From NCBI RefSeq assembly GCF_013085465.1, contig NZ_CP049838.1, forward strand, positions 620,001-684,000: a stretch of DNA of 64,000 nucleotides. The letters are read 5' to 3'. Of the stretch, positions 3,736-45,079 are shown piece after piece; the stretch's first letter is position 1; each line of letters starts with the position of its first letter. The notes under the pieces were generated by a model that did no database searches, had not been told where the DNA came from, and was given only the letters and a program-made list of their open reading frames with translations. The position numbers were made by a program, and so were the translations under genes. This DNA is from Streptomyces asoensis (GTDB lineage Bacteria; Actinomycetota; Actinomycetes; Streptomycetales; Streptomycetaceae).

Positions 3736-4734
3736 TCAGCGCGCGGCGAGGAGTTCGAGGGTGTCGATCACACGGTGGGAGAAGCCCCACTCGTTGTCGT
3801 ACCAGGCGACCACCTTGACATGGCGGCCTTCGACACGGGTGAGGGCCGAGTCGAAGATCGACGAGGCAGGGTTGCCGACGATGTCGGACGACACGAGCGC
3901 GTCCTCCGAGTACTCGAGGACGCCGGCGAGCGGGCCCTCGGCCGCGGTGCGGTACGCCGCCAGCACGTCCTCGCGCGTCACGTCGCGGGCGACGGTCGTG
4001 TTGAGCTCGACGATCGAACCCACCGGGACCGGCACCCGGATCGAGTCCCCCGACAGCTTGCCGTCGAGGTTCGGCAGCACGAGGCCGATCGCCTTGGCGG
4101 CGCCCGTCGTGGTCGGCACGATGTTCACGCCGGCGGCACGGGCGCGGCGCGGGTCGCGGTGCGGACCGTCCTGGAGGTTCTGCTCCTGCGTGTAGGCGTG
4201 CACCGTCGTCATGAAGCCGTGCTCGATGCCGGCGAGGTCGTCGAGCACGGCGGCCAGCGGCGCGAGCGCGTTGGTCGTGCACGACGCGTTCGAGACGATC
4301 GTGTGCAGCTCCGGGTCGTAGGCGTCGGTGTTGACGCCGTACGCGAGCGTGACGTCGGCGCCGTCCGAGGGGGCGCTGACCAGGACCTTCTTCGCGCCCG
4401 CGTCGAGGTGGGCACGGGCGTCCTTGGCCGAGGTGAACCGGCCGGTCGCCTCCAGCACGATGTCGACGTCGAGCTCGGCCCACGGCAGTCGCGCCGGTTC
4501 GCGCTCGGCGAGCACCTTGATGCGACGGCCGTCGACGACAAGGACGTCGCCGTCGACGCTGACCGGGCGACCCAGCCGGCCGGCCGTCGAGTCGAAGGCG
4601 AGCAGTCGCGCGAGCGTGGCGGGTTCCGTGAGGTCGTTGACGGCGACGATCTCGAGGTCGCTGTCTCGCTGGAGGAGCGCGCGCAGCACGTTGCGTCCGA
4701 TGCGGCCGAATCCGTTGACGGCGATGCGAGTCAT
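3736..4734 (-). CDS. gap: Glyceraldehyde-3-phosphate dehydrogenase, type I
   Basis: The 332-residue enzyme has the NAD-binding GFGRIGRN loop at residues 8-15, the catalytic cysteine at position 152 in SNASCTTN, and a catalytic histidine near 179 in FMTTVHAYTQ. It oxidises glyceraldehyde-3-phosphate to 1,3-bisphosphoglycerate with NAD+ and phosphate in the cytosol. The start at 4732-4734 (MTRIAVNGFG) puts the Rossmann fold at the N-terminus. No pgk or tpiA lies beside it, so this is not the usual glycolytic gap-pgk-tpiA operon and is probably a second, stand-alone copy. It converges with the XRE regulator over a strong hairpin. Confidence 0.95.
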   Translation of the reverse strand: MTRIAVNGFGRIGRNVLRALLQRDSDLEIVAVNDLTEPATLARLLAFDSTAGRLGRPVSVDGDVLVVDGRRIKVLAEREPARLPWAELDVDIVLEATGRFTSAKDARAHLDAGAKKVLVSAPSDGADVTLAYGVNTDAYDPELHTIVSNASCTTNALAPLAAVLDDLAGIEHGFMTTVHAYTQEQNLQDGPHRDPRRARAAGVNIVPTTTGAAKAIGLVLPNLDGKLSGDSIRVPVPVGSIVELNTTVARDVTREDVLAAYRTAAEGPLAGVLEYSEDALVSSDIVGNPASSIFDSALTRVEGRHVKVVAWYDNEWGFSHRVIDTLELLAAR

Positions 4735-4922
4735 GAAAGTGATGTCCCTTCGGTCCTTCGGTTCGCCACCAGCCTCGCGTGTGGCGGCCATCGGTGACCT
4801 GGGCGTGAGCGCCATGGTTCGAAAGGATCTCGCCACGTCGCCACGCGGCGTACCCGGCGTACCCGGCCTGTCCGGACGGGCCCCCGTCGGCCCGGGCGTG
4901 CCCCGCCCGTCCGGCGTACCGG

Positions 4923-5879
4923 CTACTCGCCCTTGGCGAAGGTGCGCCGGTATTCGCTCGGTGTGGTGCCGAGGATCTGCTGGAAGTGCGTCCGCAGATT
5001 CGCTCCCGTACCGAGTCCGACGTCCCCGGCGATCTGCTCGACGCTGCGCTCGGAGCGTTCGAGCAGCTCACGGGCCATGTCGATACGGGCGCGCATGACC
5101 CACTGCATGGGCGTGTACCCCGTGTCCTCGACGAAGCGCCGCGAGAAGGTGCGCTCCGAGACGGCGGCGTGCCGGGCCAGTGTCTCGAGGGTGAGGGGCT
5201 CGTCGAGTCGGTGCAGCGCCCACTCCCGGGTGGCGGCGAACCGCTCGCCCAGCGGCTCCGGCACGCTGCGCGGCACGTACTGCGCCTGGCCTCCGCTGCG
5301 GTAGGGCGCGGCGACCAGGCGCCGGGCCGCGTGGTTCGAGGCGGCCACCCCGAGGTCGCGGCGCAGGATGTGCAGGCACAGGTCGATCCCGGAGGCGGCG
5401 CCGGCCGACGTCAGCACGCTGCCCTCGTCGACGAACAGGACGTTCTCGTCGACCTGGACGAGCGGGTGCTTCGCCGCCAGCGCCCGGGTGTAGTGCCAGT
5501 GGGTCGTGGCACGCCGGCCGTCGAGCAGGCCCGTGGCGGCCAGCGCGAAGGCCCCCGTCGAGATGGCGGCCAGCCGAGCGCCCCGGGCGTGGGCGGCCAG
5601 CAGCGCGCGCAGGACCGCCGGCGGCGGATCGTCGAGGTCCGGAAATCGGTAGCCGGGAAGAAACACGACGTCGGCCCACTCGAGCGCGTCCAGACCGTGC
5701 GCCACGTGATACGACAACCCGTCCCCGCCGGTCACCAGACCGGGCGCCGCGCCGCACACCCGCACCTCGTACGGCATGCTGGCGCGGGTCGTGAACACCT
5801 GCGCGGGAATGCCGACGTCGAGCGGCTTGGCCCCCTCGAGCACAAGGACGGCGACACGTTGCAGGCGGGAGGACGACAC
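4923..5879 (-). CDS. GlxA-type regulator: DJ-1/PfpI domain plus AraC helix-turn-helix
   Basis: The 318-residue protein has an N-terminal class I glutamine amidotransferase-like domain (about 8-180) with the typical TGLLDGRRATTHWHY segment, and a C-terminal AraC-type DNA-binding domain (about 220-315; HAAVSERTFSRRFVEDTGYT and PSEYRRTF). Such regulators sense a small ligand and activate nearby genes. The residue where relatives carry a cysteine (SICTG) is serine here (AISTG, Ser107), so an amidase-type reaction is unlikely. The DUF7144 gene lies upstream and GAPDH downstream, with no obvious target. Confidence 0.9.
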   Translation of the reverse strand: MSSSRLQRVAVLVLEGAKPLDVGIPAQVFTTRASMPYEVRVCGAAPGLVTGGDGLSYHVAHGLDALEWADVVFLPGYRFPDLDDPPPAVLRALLAAHARGARLAAISTGAFALAATGLLDGRRATTHWHYTRALAAKHPLVQVDENVLFVDEGSVLTSAGAASGIDLCLHILRRDLGVAASNHAARRLVAAPYRSGGQAQYVPRSVPEPLGERFAATREWALHRLDEPLTLETLARHAAVSERTFSRRFVEDTGYTPMQWVMRARIDMARELLERSERSVEQIAGDVGLGTGANLRTHFQQILGTTPSEYRRTFAKGE

Positions 5880-34300: not shown

Positions 34301-35655
34301 GCACGCCGGGCTGTGTGGTCACCTCCTCCGGCGACCTCTACACGTCCCTCATGCGCTCGTGCACGGGCTGGCCCTCCGGTATCTGGGTCGACCCGCCCCG
34401 GCGTACCGCGCCGGACGGCTCCGCCTTCCAGCTCCAGCGCTGGTCGCACACCTTCGAGTACGCGGTCGTCGCGGGCGAGGGCGACTGGCGCGAGCTGGGC
34501 TGGCCGCGCGCCGGGCATGCCTTCAACCATCCGCTCACCGCGCGGCTGCGCGAGCCCTGCGAGACACCGGCCGACCTGCCGAGGAACGCGGCCCTGCTGA
34601 GACTTCAGCCCGAGGGCCGGGTGCTGCTGGACGCGCTGAAGCCGGCCGGCTCCCCGCTGGCCCGGGGCGGCACCGCGCCGCCCGACCCCGCGCACGGGGT
34701 CGTCGTACGGGTGCACGAGGTGGACGGACGGCCGGTGAGGGCGCGGCTGGTGGGTCCCTCGCCATGGACGGAGGGCAGCCGGGCGGATGTGCTGGAACGG
34801 CCCGGTCAGCCTCTCGACCCGGGCCCGGACGGCGCGTTGGAGCTCGACCTGACGGGCTTCGAGGTGGCCACCGTGCTGGCCTCGCCGTCGGCCGGCCCGC
34901 GGGCGGAGGGGCCCGGGGTCGCCGCGCGGGAACCCGCCCAGCCGGTGTACACCCGCTACTGGCTGCACAACTCCGGGCCGGCCCCCCGGGGCAACCTGCC
35001 CGTGGCCGTCCACCTCGCACCGGCCGCGCTCACCGCCGACGGCCCGGTCACCGCGACGGTCCGCGTCTCCTCCGAGCTCACCGACGCGCCGGTGTCGGGC
35101 ACGGTGGCGCTGGAGGTGCCGCCCGGCTGGAGCGTCGAGCCCGCCGCACTGCCGTACGCGCTCGGCCCGGGCGGCTTCACGCTCACGGAGGTCACCGTCA
35201 CACCGCCCGCGGACCCCGTGCCGGGCCGGTACCTGCTCGCCGCGCGGCTGGCGTACGGCGGACAGACGTACGAGGACGTGGTCGCCCTGGATGTGCCCGG
35301 GGAGGCCGCGCCGGGCGGACCCGACGGGCGGACCGGGCCGAGCCTGGTGATGGAGCTGGGCGCCGACCGGATCGAGGTGCGCCGGGGCGAGCGGGTGCGG
35401 GTGCCGGTGCACGTGCGCAACACGACGCGCGGTCCGGTGAGCGGGACGCTGTGGGCACTGTCGTCCTGGGGCACCTGGGCCGGTGTGGGGCCGGGCTGCC
35501 AGGGGTTCGCGGTGTCCGCCGGGGAGAGCGCGGTGTGCGAGGTGGAGGTGGACGGTTCGGCGGTACCGCCGGGCTCGTACTGGCTGATGGCCAAGGCCGG
35601 CTGGCACGGCTGCGTGGCCTACACGGAGGCGGTCGTGCTGGAGGTGACGTCATGA
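31390..35655 (+). CDS. Alpha-mannosidase, glycoside hydrolase family 38
   Basis: The 1421-residue enzyme has an N-terminal beta domain (1 to about 100), then the GH38 catalytic start MFMVSHFHYDPVWWNTQ with zinc-ligand histidine 110 and Asp112. The nucleophile is Asp247 in WQLDAFGHD, and the later zinc site is IYGAHHDAITGSESD. A long C-terminal beta region follows, ending with NEW3-like repeats (from about 1205; EVPPGWSVEPAALPYALGPG). There is no signal peptide, so it works on imported oligosaccharides, removing alpha-linked mannose with retention. It is longer than typical bacterial GH38 (about 1000) because of the added beta domains. The next gene overlaps by 4 nt. Confidence 0.93.
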   Translation: MRVISVESTELFTGTEDEPRQVVAVDVGHDPGRPVRLSVTGPGVRSVGETAVTVGEDGTVRAEIPVAVDGLAPGDRREITVTAVDGSRLARHTAEFTVAEPGWTMFMVSHFHYDPVWWNTQAAYTETWDVADDPAVTGLPARTFDSRGQSGMSLVRAHCDLARRDPAYTFVLAEVDYLKPYWDAFPEERAFLRQLIRTGRVEIMGGTYNEPNTNLTGAEATVRNALYGDGFQRGIIGAAPETAWQLDAFGHDPQFPGLMADAGITSSSWARGPFHQWGPTLSVFGEEPRDPRRMQFPAEFSWIAPSGRGLLTAYMVNHYGAGWAIDNAPTLPEAEAAALKLFQGLKKVALTRNVLLPVGGDYAPPCRWVMGIHRDWNARYVWPRFVSGVPRDFFAAVRAELEREGRTASPQTRDMNPVYTGKDVSYIDTKQAQRYGETLLADAEAWATLASLVAGHPFPDAALDKAWRQLIYGAHHDAITGSESDQVYIDLLTGWRELYDLAGAVHTDATDALARKVVALPGGAPDLVVFNSATWRRRDVLTVADPGLVPLDLDGLPLPAVLEDGTLRVVVPEVPGMGLKALSLAEGRAPGWTAGEGTTIRNTFYEVTVDPARGGGVSSLRALTEGGRELLRSGDIGNELVVQEEYPRHPRFGEGPWHLTPTGTTLARSRDVTADIDVEHSPAGSRVTVRADLGLFRYTQRLTLWAGVDRLDVTTTVDGYDGADRLIRVRWPSDVRGGLPVHEVADAVVGRGFGFVEVDSERFPWTLDNPANSWFGLGSTARVAVHDGAGRLLGHRSIGVAELVFADWDTAGELGTPLAAALVRVGVTATSTIAGGPRYGDLEVDSNLPDIRIAVGGPERNPVVAEALGWDPAAAREVRRQLAEEGLAVVWVAPRASLREEWVPGADLRDLERLPLLVVAGVGPEDDMKAVDALVADLDDATVRATAAGGGEALPPGDAWDGRGFAVLNRGTPGCVVTSSGDLYTSLMRSCTGWPSGIWVDPPRRTAPDGSAFQLQRWSHTFEYAVVAGEGDWRELGWPRAGHAFNHPLTARLREPCETPADLPRNAALLRLQPEGRVLLDALKPAGSPLARGGTAPPDPAHGVVVRVHEVDGRPVRARLVGPSPWTEGSRADVLERPGQPLDPGPDGALELDLTGFEVATVLASPSAGPRAEGPGVAAREPAQPVYTRYWLHNSGPAPRGNLPVAVHLAPAALTADGPVTATVRVSSELTDAPVSGTVALEVPPGWSVEPAALPYALGPGGFTLTEVTVTPPADPVPGRYLLAARLAYGGQTYEDVVALDVPGEAAPGGPDGRTGPSLVMELGADRIEVRRGERVRVPVHVRNTTRGPVSGTLWALSSWGTWAGVGPGCQGFAVSAGESAVCEVEVDGSAVPPGSYWLMAKAGWHGCVAYTEAVVLEVTS

Positions 35656-36485
35656 GCGGGCCCACGTTGGTGGGAGACGAGCCCGCGCCCGGACAGCCGG
35701 CGCCGACAACCCAGCACGCCCTGAGCAGGCACCCGGTGCTGGGAGACGAGGCCACCCACGGACAGACGCCGCCGGCGGCACGCCACGTCGTGAGCGAGGA
35801 CGCGCCGGTACCGGACGAGGCGGCACGCGGACAAGCGGCGTCGGCCGCACACCACGCCGTGAGGGGGCATGCGGCGCTGGTGCGTGGTGAGGCCGTGCCC
35901 GAGGGGCGGGTGGACGTGGTGCTGGACGCGGTGCCCGCCCGGGACCGGGAGACCCGGCCGGAGGCACTGGCCCGCGCGCAGCGGCAGCGCAGACGGTGGG
36001 CCACGCAGGTCGTGGTCGTCGACGAACTGGCCCGCCGCGCCTGCGCCGAGCGCGGCCTCGCACCACCGCCCGAGGTGTCCCCGGCGCGGGTGCTCGCGGT
36101 GTCCGGCACCGAGGTCGCCGACCTGGGCAGCATCGTCGCCGTGGCACTCGCCCACTCCCCCGCGGTGCGCGCCCTGCTGGCGGCGCTGGAGGCCGAGCAG
36201 CAGGTGCCGGAGCAGGCCGCACGGGCCTACTACGACCGCAATCCGGACCGATTCCTCACCCCCGAGGCGCTGCGGCGCGGCGTCGACCCGTACGGAGTTG
36301 CCGGCGCCGGGGACTTCCTGCCGTACGCGGAGGTCCGTGACCAGGTGGTGCGGGAGCTGCGGCGGGCGGTGGGCCGGCAGGCCTTCTTCGACTGGCTGGA
36401 CCGGGCCCGGGCCGAGGTGGAGTACGCGCCCGGGCACGAGCACCCGGGCGACCCGTCGCACCCGGACCACGAGCACCGGCACTGA
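35652..36485 (+). CDS. SurA/parvulin-N-like conserved hypothetical protein
   Basis: The 277-residue protein starts in an ATGA overlap with the mannosidase stop, so it is translationally coupled. Its C-terminal half (RRWATQVVVVDELARRACAE, then AARAYYDRNPDRFLTPEALR and QAFFDWLDRARAEVEYAPG) resembles the helical SurA/PrsA N-terminal chaperone region found in an actinobacterial DUF family beside glycosidase genes. No PPIase catalytic domain is present. The first 80 residues are three imperfect copies of a roughly 24-residue low-complexity unit (GDEATHGQ, PDEAARGQ). The C-terminus is His/Asp rich. A role in folding the adjacent enzyme is plausible but not shown. Confidence 0.65.
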   Translation: MSGPTLVGDEPAPGQPAPTTQHALSRHPVLGDEATHGQTPPAARHVVSEDAPVPDEAARGQAASAAHHAVRGHAALVRGEAVPEGRVDVVLDAVPARDRETRPEALARAQRQRRRWATQVVVVDELARRACAERGLAPPPEVSPARVLAVSGTEVADLGSIVAVALAHSPAVRALLAALEAEQQVPEQAARAYYDRNPDRFLTPEALRRGVDPYGVAGAGDFLPYAEVRDQVVRELRRAVGRQAFFDWLDRARAEVEYAPGHEHPGDPSHPDHEHRH

Positions 36486-39109: not shown

Positions 39110-39984
39110 CGACGGCGGTGGACAAGCCCCGGCGGCTGGTGCCGCGCTGGCGGGAGTACGGCCGCCCCCGTGAACTGGTCGTCCGCTACCTGCTGTTGCT
39201 CTTCGTGCTCGGCATCACCGTCGGCCCGCTGGTCTGGCAGTTCCTGGCCTCACTGAAGAGCACGAGCGAGGACGTGTTCGGCGCCGACGCCTCGCTGCTG
39301 CCGCACCACCCGACGCTGCGGGCCTACCGGCAGGTCTTCGACCAGGTGCCGGTGGCCACGTACATCAGGAACAGCGTGATCGTGGTCGCCCTGTCGGTCA
39401 CCAGCCAGCTGCTGTTCTCCACCACGGCCGGCTACATCCTCTCCAAGCCGGGCTGGAAGGGCCGCAAGGCGGTCTGGGTCGTACTGATCGCCTCCATGAT
39501 GTTCCCCTTCGAGTCGATCATGGTGTCGCTGTTCCTGAGCATCCGCGACCTGGGTCTGGTCGACAACCTGGTGGGCGTGTGGCTGCCCGGGTTCGTCGGC
39601 GCCATCAACGTCCTGCTGATGCGTGGTGCGTTCCTGGCGGTGCCCCGCGAGATCGAGGACTCGGCGATGCTCGACGGCGCGAACGAGTGGCAGCGCTTCC
39701 GGTACCTGTATCTGCCGTCCGCCTGGGGCGCGATCCTGGTGGTCACGATCAACACCTTCATCAGCGCCTGGGACGACTTCCTCTGGCCGCTGATCGTGCT
39801 GCGCTCCGAGGGCCACATGACGCTGACGCTGGGGCTCTCCCGGCTTCAGAGCTCGTCGTTCGGCTACGACCAGCGGGTGGTGATGGCCGGCTCGGTGATC
39901 TCCGTGGTCCCGGTGCTGGTGCTGTTCGTGATCACACAGCGCTGGTTCTACAAGGGCGTGTCGTCGGGGGCCGTCAAGCTCTGA
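39106..39984 (+). CDS. Sugar ABC transporter permease (MalG type)
   Basis: The 292-residue protein has six membrane segments and the EAA loop EIEDSAMLDGANEWQRFRYL. It overlaps the previous permease by 4 nt (ATGA). It forms the heterodimeric channel with that gene's product. Its last 37 bp overlap the 3' end of the convergent GH3 gene, so no terminator separates them. Confidence 0.93.
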   Translation: MTTAVDKPRRLVPRWREYGRPRELVVRYLLLLFVLGITVGPLVWQFLASLKSTSEDVFGADASLLPHHPTLRAYRQVFDQVPVATYIRNSVIVVALSVTSQLLFSTTAGYILSKPGWKGRKAVWVVLIASMMFPFESIMVSLFLSIRDLGLVDNLVGVWLPGFVGAINVLLMRGAFLAVPREIEDSAMLDGANEWQRFRYLYLPSAWGAILVVTINTFISAWDDFLWPLIVLRSEGHMTLTLGLSRLQSSSFGYDQRVVMAGSVISVVPVLVLFVITQRWFYKGVSSGAVKL

Positions 39985-42257
39985 TCGCGCCCGACCTCGA
40001 GGACGAGGGGGACTGCGGTGAGCGCCTCCCGTGCCGACACCGCGACCCGGATCTCCACCGCCTGTGACGGTACGACCGTCTCCAGATCGGCGCCGACCAG
40101 CTCCAGTTGGTCGGCGCCGAGGTGTATCGCGACCGTACGGCGCTCCCCCGGCGCGAGCTCCACGCTCCGGAACACCCGCAGTTCGAGCGTGCGCGGCCAG
40201 ACGGGCGCGCGCAGGCGGCGGACGTAGAGCTGGACGACGCTGCGACCGGGCCGGGTGCCGGTGTTGGTGACGTCGACCTCGACGGTGTGCCCGGCCCACC
40301 GGGGCGGCCCGTGGTGGAACGTCGTGTACGACAGCCCGTGCCCGAAGGAGTAGAGCGGCCCGGCGTCGCCGTCGACGTAGGAGCCGTACTCGGTGTCCTT
40401 GTGGTTGTAGTGGACGGGGAGCCGGTCGGCCGAGCGCGGCACGGAGACGGGCAGGCGGCCGACGGGTTCGGTGAGCCCGAGGAGCACCTCGGCGATCGCC
40501 TCGCCTCCCCACGGGCCCGGATACCAGGCGGTGAGCAGCGCGGCGGCCCGGTCCGCCGCCTCCGGGACGGCGTGCGGGCGGCCCTGGACGAGGACGACGA
40601 CGGTGGGTGTGCCGGTGGCCGTGACCGCGTCCAGGAGTGTGTGCTGGGCCCGGCCCAGCCGCAGTCCCGCGAGGTCGACGCCCTCGCCGCAGGTCATCTC
40701 GGACACGACCGTCCGGGCGGCCCCGTTGGCGTCGAACTGCGTGTCGGGGGTGCGGGCGCTGCTGCCGCCCAGCACCAGTACGGCCAGGTCACTGGCGGCG
40801 GCCGTCGCGACCGCCTCGGGGATGCCGGTGAGGTCGGCGCCGGTGAGGGCCGCGCCCCTGGCGTGGCGGACGTCCGTGCCCGGCGGGGCGAGGCGGCGCA
40901 GCGCGTCGAGGACGCTCACGCCGGTGCCTGGGCGCTGTGGGGCGGTGTAGTCGCCGAGCTGGTGGGCGGTGGTGGCGGCGTGCGGGCCGAGCACGGCGAC
41001 GCGCCGCACGTCCGGCCCGACCGGGAGGACGCCCCCGGTGTTGTGCAGGAGGGTGACGCAGGCCCGGGCCAGTTCGGTGCTCAGTTCCCGTCCGGCGTCC
41101 ACGGGCACCGCCGCGCGGCGGGTGTACGGCTGCTCGAACAGGCCCAGCCGGAACTTCAGCCGCAGGACGCGGGCGACGGCGGCGTCGAGAGCGGCCTCGC
41201 TGGCCAGGCCCCGTTCGACGGCCTCCGCCAGGTGGGTGAAGCCCTCGTCCCAGAGGCTGAGGTCGACTCCGGCGTCGAGGGCGAGAGCCCCGGCGGAGAC
41301 CTTGTCACCGGTGATGCGGGCCAGCCGGTCCACGGCCAGCCCGTCGGCCATGACCAGGCCCCCGAAACCCCACCGTTCGCGGAGCAGTCCGGTGAGCAGG
41401 GCACGGTTGCCGCAGCAGGGCAGACCGTCCACCTCGTTGTAGGCGGCCATCACGGCGGCGGCCCCGGCCCGGACTCCGGCCCGGGCGGCCGGGAGATGGA
41501 TCTCGTGCAGTTCACGCGGGCCGAGTTCGGACTCGGCGGAGTTGCGGCCGCCGACCGTGGCGCCCTGGCCGGCGAAGTGCTTGAGGACGACGGGCGCCTT
41601 GTCCGCCGCGAACCGCTCCCCCGCGCCCTGCATCCCCCGGACGAGTGCCTCCGTCAGCCGGGCCGCGAGGTACGGGTCCTCGCCGAAGCACTCCTCGGTA
41701 CGTCCCCAGCGCGGGTCCCGGGCGATGTCCAGCGCGGAGACGAGCGCCAGATGGCCGCCCCGGGCGCGCAGTTCGGCGGCGGCGTGGGCCGCGGCCCGCT
41801 CGTACAGGGCGGGGTCCCAGGTGGCGCCGATCGCCAGGTTGACGGGGAGGACGGTGCCGTCGAGGGCCATGTGGCCGTGCGGCACCTCCTCTACGAACAG
41901 GGCGGGGATCCGCAGCCGGCTCCGCTCCAGGACATGACGCTGGACCAGGTCGGCGAGGTCGGCGCTGTCCTCGAGGCCGGGTCCGTCGCCGTGGTCGACA
42001 CCGGACCAGGCGTCGGCGCGCATCAAACCGTAGAGGGCGCCTAGTCCTTCGAAGCGCTCGGTCTCGGCGTGCAGTGCCTCGGTGAGTTCGAAGTCCCCGG
42101 CCGATGTGCGTCGGTAGGCGTCCCAGCCGTACATCCGCTGGTTGAGCTGGCCGACCTTCTCGCGCGTGGTCATCCGGTCGAGAAGATCGGCGACGCGCGT
42201 GTCCAGCGGAGCGGCCGGGTCGAGGTAGCGGGCGGCCGAGTGGTCCTGGAGGGGCAT
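39948..42257 (-). CDS. Glycoside hydrolase family 3 (beta-glycosidase), cytosolic
   Basis: The 769-residue protein has the GH3 N-terminal barrel (to about 340) with nucleophile candidate Asp305 in GLVMADGLAVD, KHFAGQGATVGGRNSAESEL at about 226, the alpha/beta sandwich domain (about 390-590), and a fibronectin III-like C-terminus (about 650-745). It lacks a signal peptide, so it acts on imported sugars, releasing a beta-linked terminal residue (glucose, xylose or related). The residue before the nucleophile motif (MADG rather than SDW/TDW) is not the commonest form. ATG 42257 has AAGGACG upstream. The first nine codons and ribosome-binding site are repeated in tandem upstream. Confidence 0.9.
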   Translation of the reverse strand: MPLQDHSAARYLDPAAPLDTRVADLLDRMTTREKVGQLNQRMYGWDAYRRTSAGDFELTEALHAETERFEGLGALYGLMRADAWSGVDHGDGPGLEDSADLADLVQRHVLERSRLRIPALFVEEVPHGHMALDGTVLPVNLAIGATWDPALYERAAAHAAAELRARGGHLALVSALDIARDPRWGRTEECFGEDPYLAARLTEALVRGMQGAGERFAADKAPVVLKHFAGQGATVGGRNSAESELGPRELHEIHLPAARAGVRAGAAAVMAAYNEVDGLPCCGNRALLTGLLRERWGFGGLVMADGLAVDRLARITGDKVSAGALALDAGVDLSLWDEGFTHLAEAVERGLASEAALDAAVARVLRLKFRLGLFEQPYTRRAAVPVDAGRELSTELARACVTLLHNTGGVLPVGPDVRRVAVLGPHAATTAHQLGDYTAPQRPGTGVSVLDALRRLAPPGTDVRHARGAALTGADLTGIPEAVATAAASDLAVLVLGGSSARTPDTQFDANGAARTVVSEMTCGEGVDLAGLRLGRAQHTLLDAVTATGTPTVVVLVQGRPHAVPEAADRAAALLTAWYPGPWGGEAIAEVLLGLTEPVGRLPVSVPRSADRLPVHYNHKDTEYGSYVDGDAGPLYSFGHGLSYTTFHHGPPRWAGHTVEVDVTNTGTRPGRSVVQLYVRRLRAPVWPRTLELRVFRSVELAPGERRTVAIHLGADQLELVGADLETVVPSQAVEIRVAVSAREALTAVPLVLEVGRDQSLTAPDDTPL

Positions 42258-42715
42258 GGGGGCGTCCTTGCGAGGCCGGGCGTCAGCGGGCGGTGCGACG
42301 GGCGTGACAGGTAGCCGGGTACGGAGCGGCCGGGTGGTCCTGGAGGGGCATGGGGGCGTCCTTGCGAGGCCGGGCGTCAGCGGGCGGTGCGACGGGCGTG
42401 ACAGGTAGCCGGGTACGGAGCGGCCGGGTGGTCCTGGAGGGGCATGGGGGCGTCCTTGCGAGGCCGGGCGTCAGCGGGCGGCGCGACGGGCGTGACAGGT
42501 GTCCGGGTACGGAGCGGCCGAGTGGTCCTGGAGGGGCATGGGGGCGTCCTTGCGAGGCCGGGCGTCAGCGGGCGGCGCGACGGGCGTGACAGGTGTCCGG
42601 GTACGGAGCGGCCGGGTGGTCCTGGAGGGGCATGGGGGCGTCCTTGTGAGGCCGGGCGTCAGCGGGCGGCGCGACGGGCGTGACAGGTATCCGGGTACGG
42701 AGCGGCCGAGTGGTC
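42229..42715 (-). repeat. 94-bp tandem repeat carrying copied start sites and 22-codon open frames
   Basis: The unit recurs with a period of exactly 94 bp; the ATG of the GH3 gene (42255-42257) reappears at 42349, 42443, 42537 and 42631. Read on the minus strand, every upstream copy has AAGGACG, an ATG, the GH3 N-terminal MPLQDH, then a TGA after 22 codons (frames 42283-42351, 42377-42445, 42471-42539, 42565-42633), then 25 bp to the next start. Two copies read MPLQDHPAAPYPATC then HARRTAR; two end in DTCHARRAAR. A fifth unit, next to the kinase stop, has lost its ATG. The unit seems to derive from the kinase-GH3 junction. Confidence 0.9.
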
Positions 42716-42750
42716 GTCGTGCGGCGCGGGTCGTCCTTGCGCGGGGCGCG

Positions 42751-43779
42751 TCAGCGGGTGGTGCGGTGGGCGAGGCGGGCCAGGGCCACGGCGCCCGGGG
42801 AGCCGTCCGACACGGGAGTGATCGTGAGCGCGAGATGTGCCAGGCGCTCGGTGAGGGGGGTGAGCAGGGGGCCGTGCGGGGCGAGCAGGCCGCCGGTGAC
42901 CACCAGGGGTTCGCCCGGGCGCGGGGCCAGGGCTGTCACGGTCTCCGTCAGTCGGCGCGCGGCCTCCCGCAGGATCTCCCCGGCGACGGCGTCCTTCTCC
43001 TCGGCGGCCCGGACGACCAGCGGCGCGTGGTCGGCCAGCCGGACCGGCGGCCGGTCCATGACGGCGGGCAGCAGATGCGCGCGGTAGGCGGTGCGCAGGA
43101 CCGCGCTCCAGCCTGCGGTGTCCGTGACGCCGTAGGCCTCGGGGGGCAGGACGCCCGGCGGCAGCCCGAGCTCGCGGCCGACCGCGCGGGCGAGGACGGT
43201 GGGCGCGCCCCGGCCGTCGGCCGCCCGCAGGGCCGAGCGGACGGCCGCGCGGCCGATCCAGAAGCCGCTGCCGTCGTCGCCGAGGAGCCAGCCGTCGCCG
43301 CCGGAGGTCGCGGTCGGCGCCCGGGCGGCGATCCGGGCCGCGACCGCGCCGGTGCCGGCCACCAGGACCAGGCCGTCGGCGGGGTGGCCGGGGGCGGTGG
43401 CGAACGTGGTCTCGATGTCGCTGTGGACGTCGACCGTCGTGGCGGTGATGCCCAGCCGGGCGAGCGCGCCGGACAGGGCCGTGCGGGCCCGCACCCGGCC
43501 GGGCTCGTCGGCGCCCTGGCGCTGGTGACCGGTGCCGGCGAAGCCGCCCGCCACCGCGGCCACCCGCCCGCGCAGCGGTTCGGGCACGGCCTGCGCGAGA
43601 GCCTCGGCAAGGTGGTCGGCGAGCTCGGGACCCGGCACGGTGAGCGCGTTGCCGGGCCCTGCCGCGCCCTCGCCCCGCGGTCGGCCGTCGCCGAGGTCCG
43701 CCAGGACGGCACGGGTGCGCGTGCCACCGGCGTCGAGGCCGACCACGAGATCGCGGTCTTGGTTCAAATCACTATTCAT
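42751..43779 (-). CDS. BadF/BadG-type ATPase, probable N-acetylglucosamine kinase
   Basis: The 342-residue protein has the actin-like ATPase fold: phosphate-1 motif LVVGLDAGGTRTRAVLADLG at the N-terminus, GGFAGTGHQ, the second phosphate loop VLVAGTGAVAARIAA, and GWLLGDDGSGFWIGRAAV, which is typical of GlcNAc kinases of this superfamily. It should phosphorylate GlcNAc (or another aminosugar) released in the cytosol. It precedes the GH3 gene on the same strand across the 94-bp repeat array and is divergent from the GH5-like gene. ATG 43777-43779 was chosen because the fold starts soon after; the ribosome-binding site is weak. Confidence 0.85.
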   Translation of the reverse strand: MNSDLNQDRDLVVGLDAGGTRTRAVLADLGDGRPRGEGAAGPGNALTVPGPELADHLAEALAQAVPEPLRGRVAAVAGGFAGTGHQRQGADEPGRVRARTALSGALARLGITATTVDVHSDIETTFATAPGHPADGLVLVAGTGAVAARIAARAPTATSGGDGWLLGDDGSGFWIGRAAVRSALRAADGRGAPTVLARAVGRELGLPPGVLPPEAYGVTDTAGWSAVLRTAYRAHLLPAVMDRPPVRLADHAPLVVRAAEEKDAVAGEILREAARRLTETVTALAPRPGEPLVVTGGLLAPHGPLLTPLTERLAHLALTITPVSDGSPGAVALARLAHRTTR

Positions 43780-43800
43780 TGCATCCCATGGTGGTTGATA
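43761..43800. promoter_or_regulatory. Possible RpiR-type motifs between divergent kinase and GH5-like genes
   Basis: The minus strand reads GTGATTTGAACC (43761-43772), identical over 12 bases to the importer-promoter motif, but here it overlaps kinase codons 4-7. A GGTGGTTGATAC element on the plus strand ends at 43801. The case is weaker than for the other sites. Confidence 0.35.
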
Positions 43801-43840
43801 CATTCGCCCGAGACAAGGTCCGTCTCGCGAGGAGGACGCC

Positions 43841-45079
43841 ATCAACACGCACCGGTCCGCGCCCGAGCTCCGCTTCGGTGTCAACTACACCCCACGCCGC
43901 GGCTGGTTCCACGCCTGGCACGACTTCGATCCCGGGCTCGCGCGCGAGGACCTGGCGCAGATCGCCGGGCTGGGTCTGGACCACGTCCGGGTCTTCCATC
44001 TGTGGCCGCTGCTCCAGCCCAACCGCACCCTGGTCCGCGCGTCCGCCGTGGACCAGCTGGTCCGCCTGGCGGACCTGGCCGCCGAGTGCGGCCTGGACGT
44101 CCTGGTGGACGGCGTCCAGGGGCACCTGTCGAGCTTCGACTTCTACCCGGAGTGGACGCGCAGCTGGCACCACCGCAACGTGTTCACCGACCCCGAGGCG
44201 ATCGAGGCCCAGGCGCTGCTGCTGCGCACGCTGGGCCGCGCGCTGTCGGGTCACCCCCGTCTCCTCGGGCTCCAGCTCGGCAACGAGCTCAACAACCTGG
44301 TCGAGCACAACCCGGTGTCGGTGGCCGAGGTGGACCACTACCTCGACACGCTGCTGGCCGCCGCGCGGGACGGACTGGGCGACGGCGCCGGCCTGGTCAC
44401 GCACTCGGCGTACGACGCCGCCTGGTACGGCGACGACCACCCCTTCACCCCGCAGGCCTCGGCCCGCAAGGGCGACCTGACCACCGTCCACCCCTGGGTG
44501 TTCTCCGCCGACTGCGCGCGGCGCTACGGTCCGCGCTCACCGCAGGTGCACCATCTCGCGGAGTACGGGACGGAACTGGCGGCGGCCTACGCCACCGATC
44601 CGGCCCGCCCTGTCTGGGTCCAGGAGACCGGGGCCCCCGAGCCGCACATCCCGGCGGCCGACGCCCCCGACTTCGCCCGCGCGACACTGCTCAACGCGGC
44701 CGGCTGCGCACGGCTGTGGGGCGTCACCTGGTGGTGCTCCCACGACGTCGACCGCTCGCTGGCCGACTTCCCGGAGCTGGAGTACACGCTGGGCCTGTTC
44801 GACTCCGCGGGCCGGCCCAAGCCGATCGCGAAGGCCCTGTCCGCCACGGTCGCCGAACTCCGCGCCACCCCCGGCCCTCCGCCGACCCGCACCACGGCCC
44901 TTGTTCTGCACTGCACCCCGTCCACGCGCTCGGTGTCCGGGCCCGGCGGCGCGTTCTTCGACGCCTGGATGCGGCTGCGCCAGGAGGGGACCCGCCCGGC
45001 GGTGGTCCTGGCGGAGCGCGCGGCGGACACGGCGTATCTGGCCGCGAGGGGGATCACGGAGCTGGTCGACGGGAAGTGA
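43841..45079 (+). CDS. GH5-like (clan GH-A) glycosidase, possible beta-mannosidase, with ATC start
   Basis: From the position best supported by a ribosome-binding site (GAGGAGG 43829-43835), the first codon is ATC at 43841. The frame has no ATG, GTG or TTG between the stop at 43796 and the GTG at 44048, yet the family fold (FGVNYTPRRGWFHAWHDFD) begins only 11 residues after this ATC. The 412-residue protein has a TIM barrel with acid/base Glu149 in LQLGNELNN and nucleophile Glu262 in VWVQETGAP. It lacks a signal peptide. The GVNYTP opening recalls GH5_18 beta-mannosidases that cleave Man-beta-1,4-GlcNAc (from memory). Alternatives are other GH5 activities. Confidence 0.8.
   Translation: MNTHRSAPELRFGVNYTPRRGWFHAWHDFDPGLAREDLAQIAGLGLDHVRVFHLWPLLQPNRTLVRASAVDQLVRLADLAAECGLDVLVDGVQGHLSSFDFYPEWTRSWHHRNVFTDPEAIEAQALLLRTLGRALSGHPRLLGLQLGNELNNLVEHNPVSVAEVDHYLDTLLAAARDGLGDGAGLVTHSAYDAAWYGDDHPFTPQASARKGDLTTVHPWVFSADCARRYGPRSPQVHHLAEYGTELAAAYATDPARPVWVQETGAPEPHIPAADAPDFARATLLNAAGCARLWGVTWWCSHDVDRSLADFPELEYTLGLFDSAGRPKPIAKALSATVAELRATPGPPPTRTTALVLHCTPSTRSVSGPGGAFFDAWMRLRQEGTRPAVVLAERAADTAYLAARGITELVDGK

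Follow-up and report, generated by a model that had tools for sequence, protein, structure and literature searches.

Mycobacterial interspersed repetitive units (MIRUs), of which the senX3-regX3 case is an example, are short repeats that lie between co-directional genes, with a small frame before the downstream gene (PMC12548453, PMC4213456). In the available parts of these two sources, these repeats are portrayed as apparently mobile elements that insert at start codons, the small frame being coupled to the next gene at a spacing of -4 nt (PMC12548453), and the senX3-regX3 region is described as holding several of them and as having promoter activity (PMC4213456). Another point of comparison is offered by termination-reinitiation pairs, in which the stop of one gene overlaps the start of the next (NTGA). 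The distance at which such coupling works is disputed: the available text of one study places coupled pairs at about -8 to +10 nt and finds coupling nearly lost at about 20 nt (PMC10666635), while another study, as cited in the available part of a review (PMC12548453), saw no loss up to +25. Bicistronic leader designs and ribosome delivery by uORFs are also related, in that a short frame before a gene could deliver ribosomes to it, as the accessible portion of the same review describes (PMC12548453). Ordinary tandem duplications (VNTRs) have head-to-tail units of local origin and young, identical copies.

Here we describe a tandem array from Streptomyces asoensis that shares something with each of these. 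It lies between a sugar kinase gene and a GH3 gene in the window, that is, the whole 64,000-nt stretch that was analysed (positions 620,001 to 684,000 of the forward strand of contig NZ_CP049838.1, assembly GCF_013085465.1). Unlike MIRUs, the unit is confined to one locus, derives from the genes on either side of it and has a spacing of +25 nt. The dispersal that the name MIRU and the available part of PMC12548453 imply is absent, all seven matches to the unit lying in the array; the 4-nt overlap with the next gene is likewise absent from the window, and is present at three related loci (L067, L081 and L101). By these two tested features the unit is not a MIRU, though MIRUs are the closest known kind. 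The likeness to termination-reinitiation pairs comes from relatives, since the kinase stop overlaps a start in 65 of 95 junctions compared; the window is among the 30 without overlap and has a ribosome-binding site in the spacer. In contrast with the bicistronic designs, the array is natural, tandemly repeated, has its frames +25 nt apart and is known from sequence, and unlike an ordinary VNTR it spans a gene boundary, so that its copies are start-to-stop chimeras. In the literature searched, which included few subscription papers and some sources in part, we found no description of arrays of duplicated stop/start junctions.

We consider the array likely to be a young, near-neutral local duplication of the gene boundary that was later re-expanded, its mini-frames probably being translated.

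Array and flanking genes

Tandem Repeats Finder (TRF) places the array at 42224-42772 on the minus strand, with a period of 94, 5.9 copies, 93% matches and a score of 900; the next-highest of the window's 26 TRF rows scores 158. The unit has seven matches in the whole 10.04-Mb single-contig genome, and this local clustering, together with the period, bears out an earlier note on this DNA that reported a tandem 94-bp array between the kinase and GH3 genes. The extent given there (42229..42715) was too narrow, as the array reaches into the final 19 coding bases of the kinase (42754-42772). For background, TRF rows were taken from 40 sampled stretches of this genome and the window, 864 kb in total and under a tenth of the whole. 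They included 29 rows with a period of at least 30 and 2.5 copies or more, in some cases with several rows describing one array in overlapping form, and among these the window's array is second by score and the sole one without an open frame running through it. Other repeats seen along the way include a 69-bp repeat elsewhere in the window (35647-35795; 2.2 copies, 73% matches), a 327-bp repeat of 2.8 copies within a 363-codon open frame (L214:5256-6155, G000), and a 61-bp repeat of 3.8 copies that lies largely between two open frames and whose period is not divisible by 3 (L224:17065-17303, G000); the last we take to resemble a dispersed Streptomyces intergenic element.

Frame and translation identify four intact mini-ORFs on the minus strand, each of 22 codons plus TGA and each ending 25 nt before the following start. 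These are mini-ORF 1 (42633-42565, MPLQDHPAAPYPDTCHARRAAR), mini-ORF 2 (42539-42471, MPLQDHSAAPYPDTCHARRAAR), mini-ORF 3 (42445-42377, MPLQDHPAAPYPATCHARRTAR) and mini-ORF 4 (42351-42283), whose peptide is that of mini-ORF 3. The peptides come in three versions, the third occurring twice, where two had been counted earlier. The layout is otherwise as first described: every intact copy has the GH3 start region, 22 codons, a stop and 25 nt to the next start, and the four consecutive small frames lead into GH3, whose ATG at 42257 is the next start, 25 nt after the last mini-ORF. The 25-nt spacer before this ATG (42258..42282, minus strand) carries AAGGA seven bases upstream of the start and is repeated before every mini-ORF, with one variable column among the five copies. 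The copied codons are the first of GH3, its MPLQDH being the opening of the mini-ORFs as well. The two adjacent 94-bp units beside GH3 are an identical pair, and recent expansion there is therefore indicated.

The copy adjoining the kinase (copy 0, 42662..42772, minus strand) was delimited by the TRF end at 42772 and by alignment to copies 1-5. It comprises the genuine kinase tail, the stop, an AAGGA motif and a decayed start region, followed by unit-like sequence. Because copy 0 has no ATG, GTG or TTG, the series of small frames does not connect to the kinase: the first mini start comes only after a gap of 117 nt from the kinase stop.

The upstream gene (42751..43779, minus strand; stop TGA at 42753-42751) encodes a BadF/BadG-type sugar kinase (PF01869, E 2.7e-17). 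Its true start is probably the ATG at 43779, the longest frame opening at 43884, and its substrate is probably N-acetylglucosamine. PDB matches are to hexokinase and GlcNAc kinase, and the score against NagK_SO3507 is 81 bits, far under the 370-bit cut-off. Directly before the kinase start, at 43788-43804 on the minus strand, is the word AATGTATCAACCACCAT. An identical or almost identical word precedes the kinase in several related loci among those listed, which makes it a candidate promoter or operator. The downstream gene (39948..42257, minus strand) encodes a glycoside hydrolase family 3 (GH3) protein of the beta-glucosidase / beta-xylosidase type, with domains PF00933, PF01915 and PF14310 and a match to the beta-xylosidase 7zb3 at E 7.5e-139.

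Origin of the repeat unit

The unit corresponds to the kinase-stop/GH3-start junction, and when the copies are aligned on their stops the peptide reads as the first codons of GH3 fused to the last codons of the kinase. The units had been described as copied translation starts, which is correct and yet incomplete, the end of the kinase gene being copied too. In a register test, 15-16 of the 19 nt before each mini TGA match the kinase tail in the same frame and with the same TGA, and no other TGA in the window reaches 15 (1181 TGAs counted in all, on both strands). For the unit's spacer and start, alignment to the junction in copy 0 scored 44, which none of 1000 shuffles attained. Aligned locally without a fixed register, the mini and kinase tails gave no significant match (71 of 1000 shuffles as high), and when the mini tail was set against the kinase tails of five relatives only that of L152 stood out (2 of 500 shuffles), scores as high being given by 130 of 500 shuffles for L038, 170 for L149, 230 for L150 and 423 for L040. 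The unit is homologous to both gene ends in the right order, the kinase part in the register test only; the case for a copied junction rests on register and flanking homology and not on free local alignment of the tail.

Copy 0 retains the kinase part and has lost the start, while copies 1-5 retain the start and have drifted in the kinase part. Such a pattern is expected after a duplication, each gene needing one copy of its own end. We propose that the kinase/GH3 boundary was duplicated in tandem. The sequence shows that the duplicated segment comprises the last kinase codons and stop, the spacer with its ribosome-binding site and the first GH3 codons, and that at each head-to-tail join the GH3 start is fused in frame to the kinase end, creating the 22-codon chimeric frame. 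After this first duplication copy 0 would have lost its start and the later copies drifted in their kinase part, a history that we infer from the pattern seen in the copies, and one drifted unit would then have multiplied through slippage or unequal recombination. The mini-ORFs are probably translated, since the region from which GH3 itself is initiated is present in each of them, and a share of the ribosomes may start again 25 nt further along; overall, GH3 would probably be little affected.

The frame, stop, ribosome-binding site and spacing are all inherited with the junction, and their presence in each copy is therefore no evidence of selection. Among the four minis there are four variable columns, in three codons, and every one of them is residue-changing. 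The resulting pN/pS is 0.93, with 0.56 and 1.31 in the two shifted frames, a spread that shows how little power four columns give. Since 20 of 207 single substitutions break the frame, four random changes would leave all copies intact with a probability of about 0.67. Selection on the window's peptides is unsupported by a pN/pS of 0.93 on only four variable columns, and we infer that the peptides themselves are not under selection, from a value near 1 and at low power. The earlier note held that the array is either young or selected: youth agrees with the two identical copies, the four variable columns and the single-copy state of the sister locus described below, while selection lacks support here.

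Kinase-GH3 junctions in related Streptomyces

GH3 and related searches yielded 152 loci (L038-L189), and the relatives retrieved with the window's GH3 gene were Streptomyces. We kept 97 distinct junctions, having dropped 27 duplicates, 17 loci without a kinase tail in reach, 10 whose GH3 part had less than 60% identity and one without a GH3 hit. Two of the 97 (L056 and L076) were mis-parsed and were excluded, leaving 95 junctions, the window included. The GH3 tree was made from the proteins of 90 of the 97 junctions, with a GH3 part of more than 650 residues, L056 and L076 among them.

The 4-nt stop/start overlap (NTGA) is found at the kinase stop in the 65 junctions mentioned above, and 60 of these open GH3 directly. 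The remaining five (L067, L081, L101, L103 and L109) open a mini-ORF, and all five reach GH3 through an unbroken NTGA chain. With the window there are six mini-bearing junctions; they need four changes on the GH3 tree, four being forced by well-supported branches. These changes may be gains or losses, and the differing unit lengths (94, 59 and about 119) and sequences speak for separate gains. Three of the four mini-bearing groups appear from their sequences to be copied junctions, the window and L067/L081 clearly and L101 suggestively.

The sister of the window, L038, has the nearest GH3 among the loci compared (88% identity, SH-aLRT 95) and a single junction of the same layout: kinase TGA, AAGGACG, and a start followed by CTCCCTCAGGACCAG. 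The unit was searched for in 392 Streptomyces genomes, its own included, two first-look candidates per genome going to scoring. Matches came from 53 others, all partial and at E 1.3e-6 or weaker, and a search of nine chosen relatives' genomes added one more, at E 9e-4; apart from these weak partial matches, the window's unit was found in no other genome of either set. Variation in copy number, which the earlier note thought possible between strains, was seen in an equivalent array of two other close species, with one mini in L081 against three in L067.

An array at a contig edge was suspected in S. torulosus (L039) and was set aside: only 12 bases of contig precede the GH3 match, and a kinase search of this genome at E 1e-20 found none. 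The L150 junction (G228) has 317 nt between the kinase stop and the conserved part of GH3, rich in short degenerate repeats and without a mini-ORF chain. L176 (G193:C1:7501594-7503394) has a 17-bp repeat of 4.5 copies between kinase and GH3, with three six-codon MTGGHE frames linked through ATGA, of which the final start is in the GH3 reading frame; this locus is outside the tree and is not among the six mini-bearing junctions.

Mini-ORF bridges and a possible ribosome relay

The best surviving alternative, which we still regard as unlikely, is that the array is a ribosome relay or landing array. The mini-cistrons, with their near-identical initiation sites, would gather ribosomes and pass them on by termination-reinitiation, GH3 output would scale with the number of copies, coupling would persist despite inserted DNA, and selection would keep the frames. 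The window itself lends this some support, with its five AAGGA-ATG sites set 94 nt apart and its spacers nearly invariant, as do the relatives through the common 4-nt overlap at the kinase stop, which leads into GH3 or into an unbroken chain, and through the bridges that follow.

Three minis (39, 44 and 40 residues) are present in L067 (S. violaceoruber NRRL S-981) and one in L081 (S. cellulosae), a close relative whose GH3 is 96% identical; copy number differs between these close species, and the frames are kept. The minis of both loci are all joined by GTGA overlaps and are largely copies of the kinase tail. Compared in register and without gaps, the L081 mini matched at 47 of 60 positions and two of the L067 minis at 44 and 46, the best other TGA of the locus reaching 27. 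L067 mini 1 matched at only 24 of 60, a level reached by 21 of 206 other TGAs, owing to a gap of 3 nt, although its peptide clearly resembles the kinase tail (ADGCRGAVALARL). Between the L067 units (116, 131 and 119 in length) the differences are multiples of 3, and there are compensating one-base gaps in mini 2, both of which favor a relay. In a search for further arrays of the L081 type among 199 genomes, only G177, the query's own, matched across the array, and in 10 others the match was confined to the kinase side or to the start of GH3.

In L101 (Streptomyces sp. WM6386) the array has a period of 59 bp and frames of 20 residues, with repeat copies at 4720-5014 and overlaps of TTGA and ATGA. 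Its chain runs from the kinase through a 59-residue frame and two 20-residue frames to GH3, bypassing the first two 20-residue frames. The register test gave 12 to 15 of 21 positions; six of 216 other TGAs reach 12, the best of them 14. L103 and L109 have one bridging mini-ORF each, of 30 and 40 residues, with the common ending VNDTPESPGR and a length difference of 30 nt. These two minis were tried as kinase-tail copies and gave no register match.

When the inserts were shuffled at fixed length, an unbroken 4-nt chain arose in 30 of 2000 shuffles for L067 and 141 of 2000 for L101, or in 276 and 385 of 2000 with a looser spacing (-8 to +6). The corresponding 4-nt counts were 1542 for L081, 1778 for L103 and 1708 for L109, again of 2000. 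Stops are rare in GC-rich DNA, so one bridge costs little where its length is suitable. The chains of L081, L103 and L109 are thus what chance would give at their lengths, which counts against a relay, and only those of L067 and L101 carry weight. The pN/pS of L067 mini 3 against L081 is 0.44 (2.15 and 1.43 in the other frames) and that of L101 is 0.55 (0.66 in another frame); these values would agree with kept frames, but both come from very few sites.

As evidence for a relay the L067 and L101 chains are suggestive but fall short of proof. For the window the case is weaker still: copy 0 has no start, the kinase is left unconnected, and the spacing of +25 between minis and to GH3 lies outside the range of about -8 to +10 nt, reinitiation at that distance being almost nil in E. 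coli and H. volcanii according to the available text of PMC10666635. Tuning of coupled translation, as the earlier note suggested, may nevertheless occur, the published measurements at +25 nt being in conflict. A broader form of this reading, to which we give a similarly low likelihood, is that the Streptomyces kinase-GH3 boundary repeatedly gives birth to mini-cistrons, in three of the four cases apparently through copying of its own stop/start junction, and that the surviving arrays are ribosome relays, whose in-frame fusions and stop/start geometry feed GH3 across inserts, with a tunable copy number. The window would then be a spaced, Shine-Dalgarno-driven form, and L067/L081 and L101 a 4-nt-overlap form.

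Improbable readings: a regulatory array or an assembly artefact

We think it very improbable that the array is a cis-regulatory leader or operator array, in which the repeat would bind a regulator, attenuate transcription or carry the GH3 promoter. A precedent is the senX3-regX3 intergenic region, which with its several MIRUs drives expression of the second gene according to the available part of PMC4213456. Here, a scan of 42150-42850 found no terminator and no sigma-70-like promoter, the one promoter type that the scan covers; the array matched no Rfam family, and there is no inverted repeat of 7 or more within 42440-42560. Single units, as RNA, have less structure than their dinucleotide shuffles (z +2.2 and +2.0), and the same is true of the region around the GH3 start (z +1.6 for 71 nt, +2.6 for 141 nt). 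An attenuator has a terminator or alternative hairpins after its leader frame; the count of terminators is zero and the fold z values are from +1.6 to +2.6, so a structured leader or attenuator is not supported.

That the copies are fewer or absent, through an artefact of assembly, is most improbable: the array is known here from an assembled contig, but that contig is a single one of 10.04 Mb, the distinct variants of the copies are ordered in a way unlike simple mis-assembly of one unit, and comparable arrays occur in independent assemblies.

Implications

Near-neutral duplication of the gene boundary is the reading we prefer, and two further findings count against it. The four changes that the tree requires for mini-ORFs here are rather many for pure accident, although the number has to be read without a base rate for other junctions, and the RNA of the unit, less structured than shuffles, would suit a ribosome-loading array. 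The part worth following is that mini-ORFs recur at this boundary in other lineages and that the overlaps are kept there.

If the arrays are merely tolerated, new small frames arise free from gene boundaries, and the array is a warning against taking intact frames as a sign of selection. If they are relays, Streptomyces would offer a natural set in which the same gene is preceded by between one and four mini-cistrons, and the disputed distance rule of translational coupling would become testable with natural variants.
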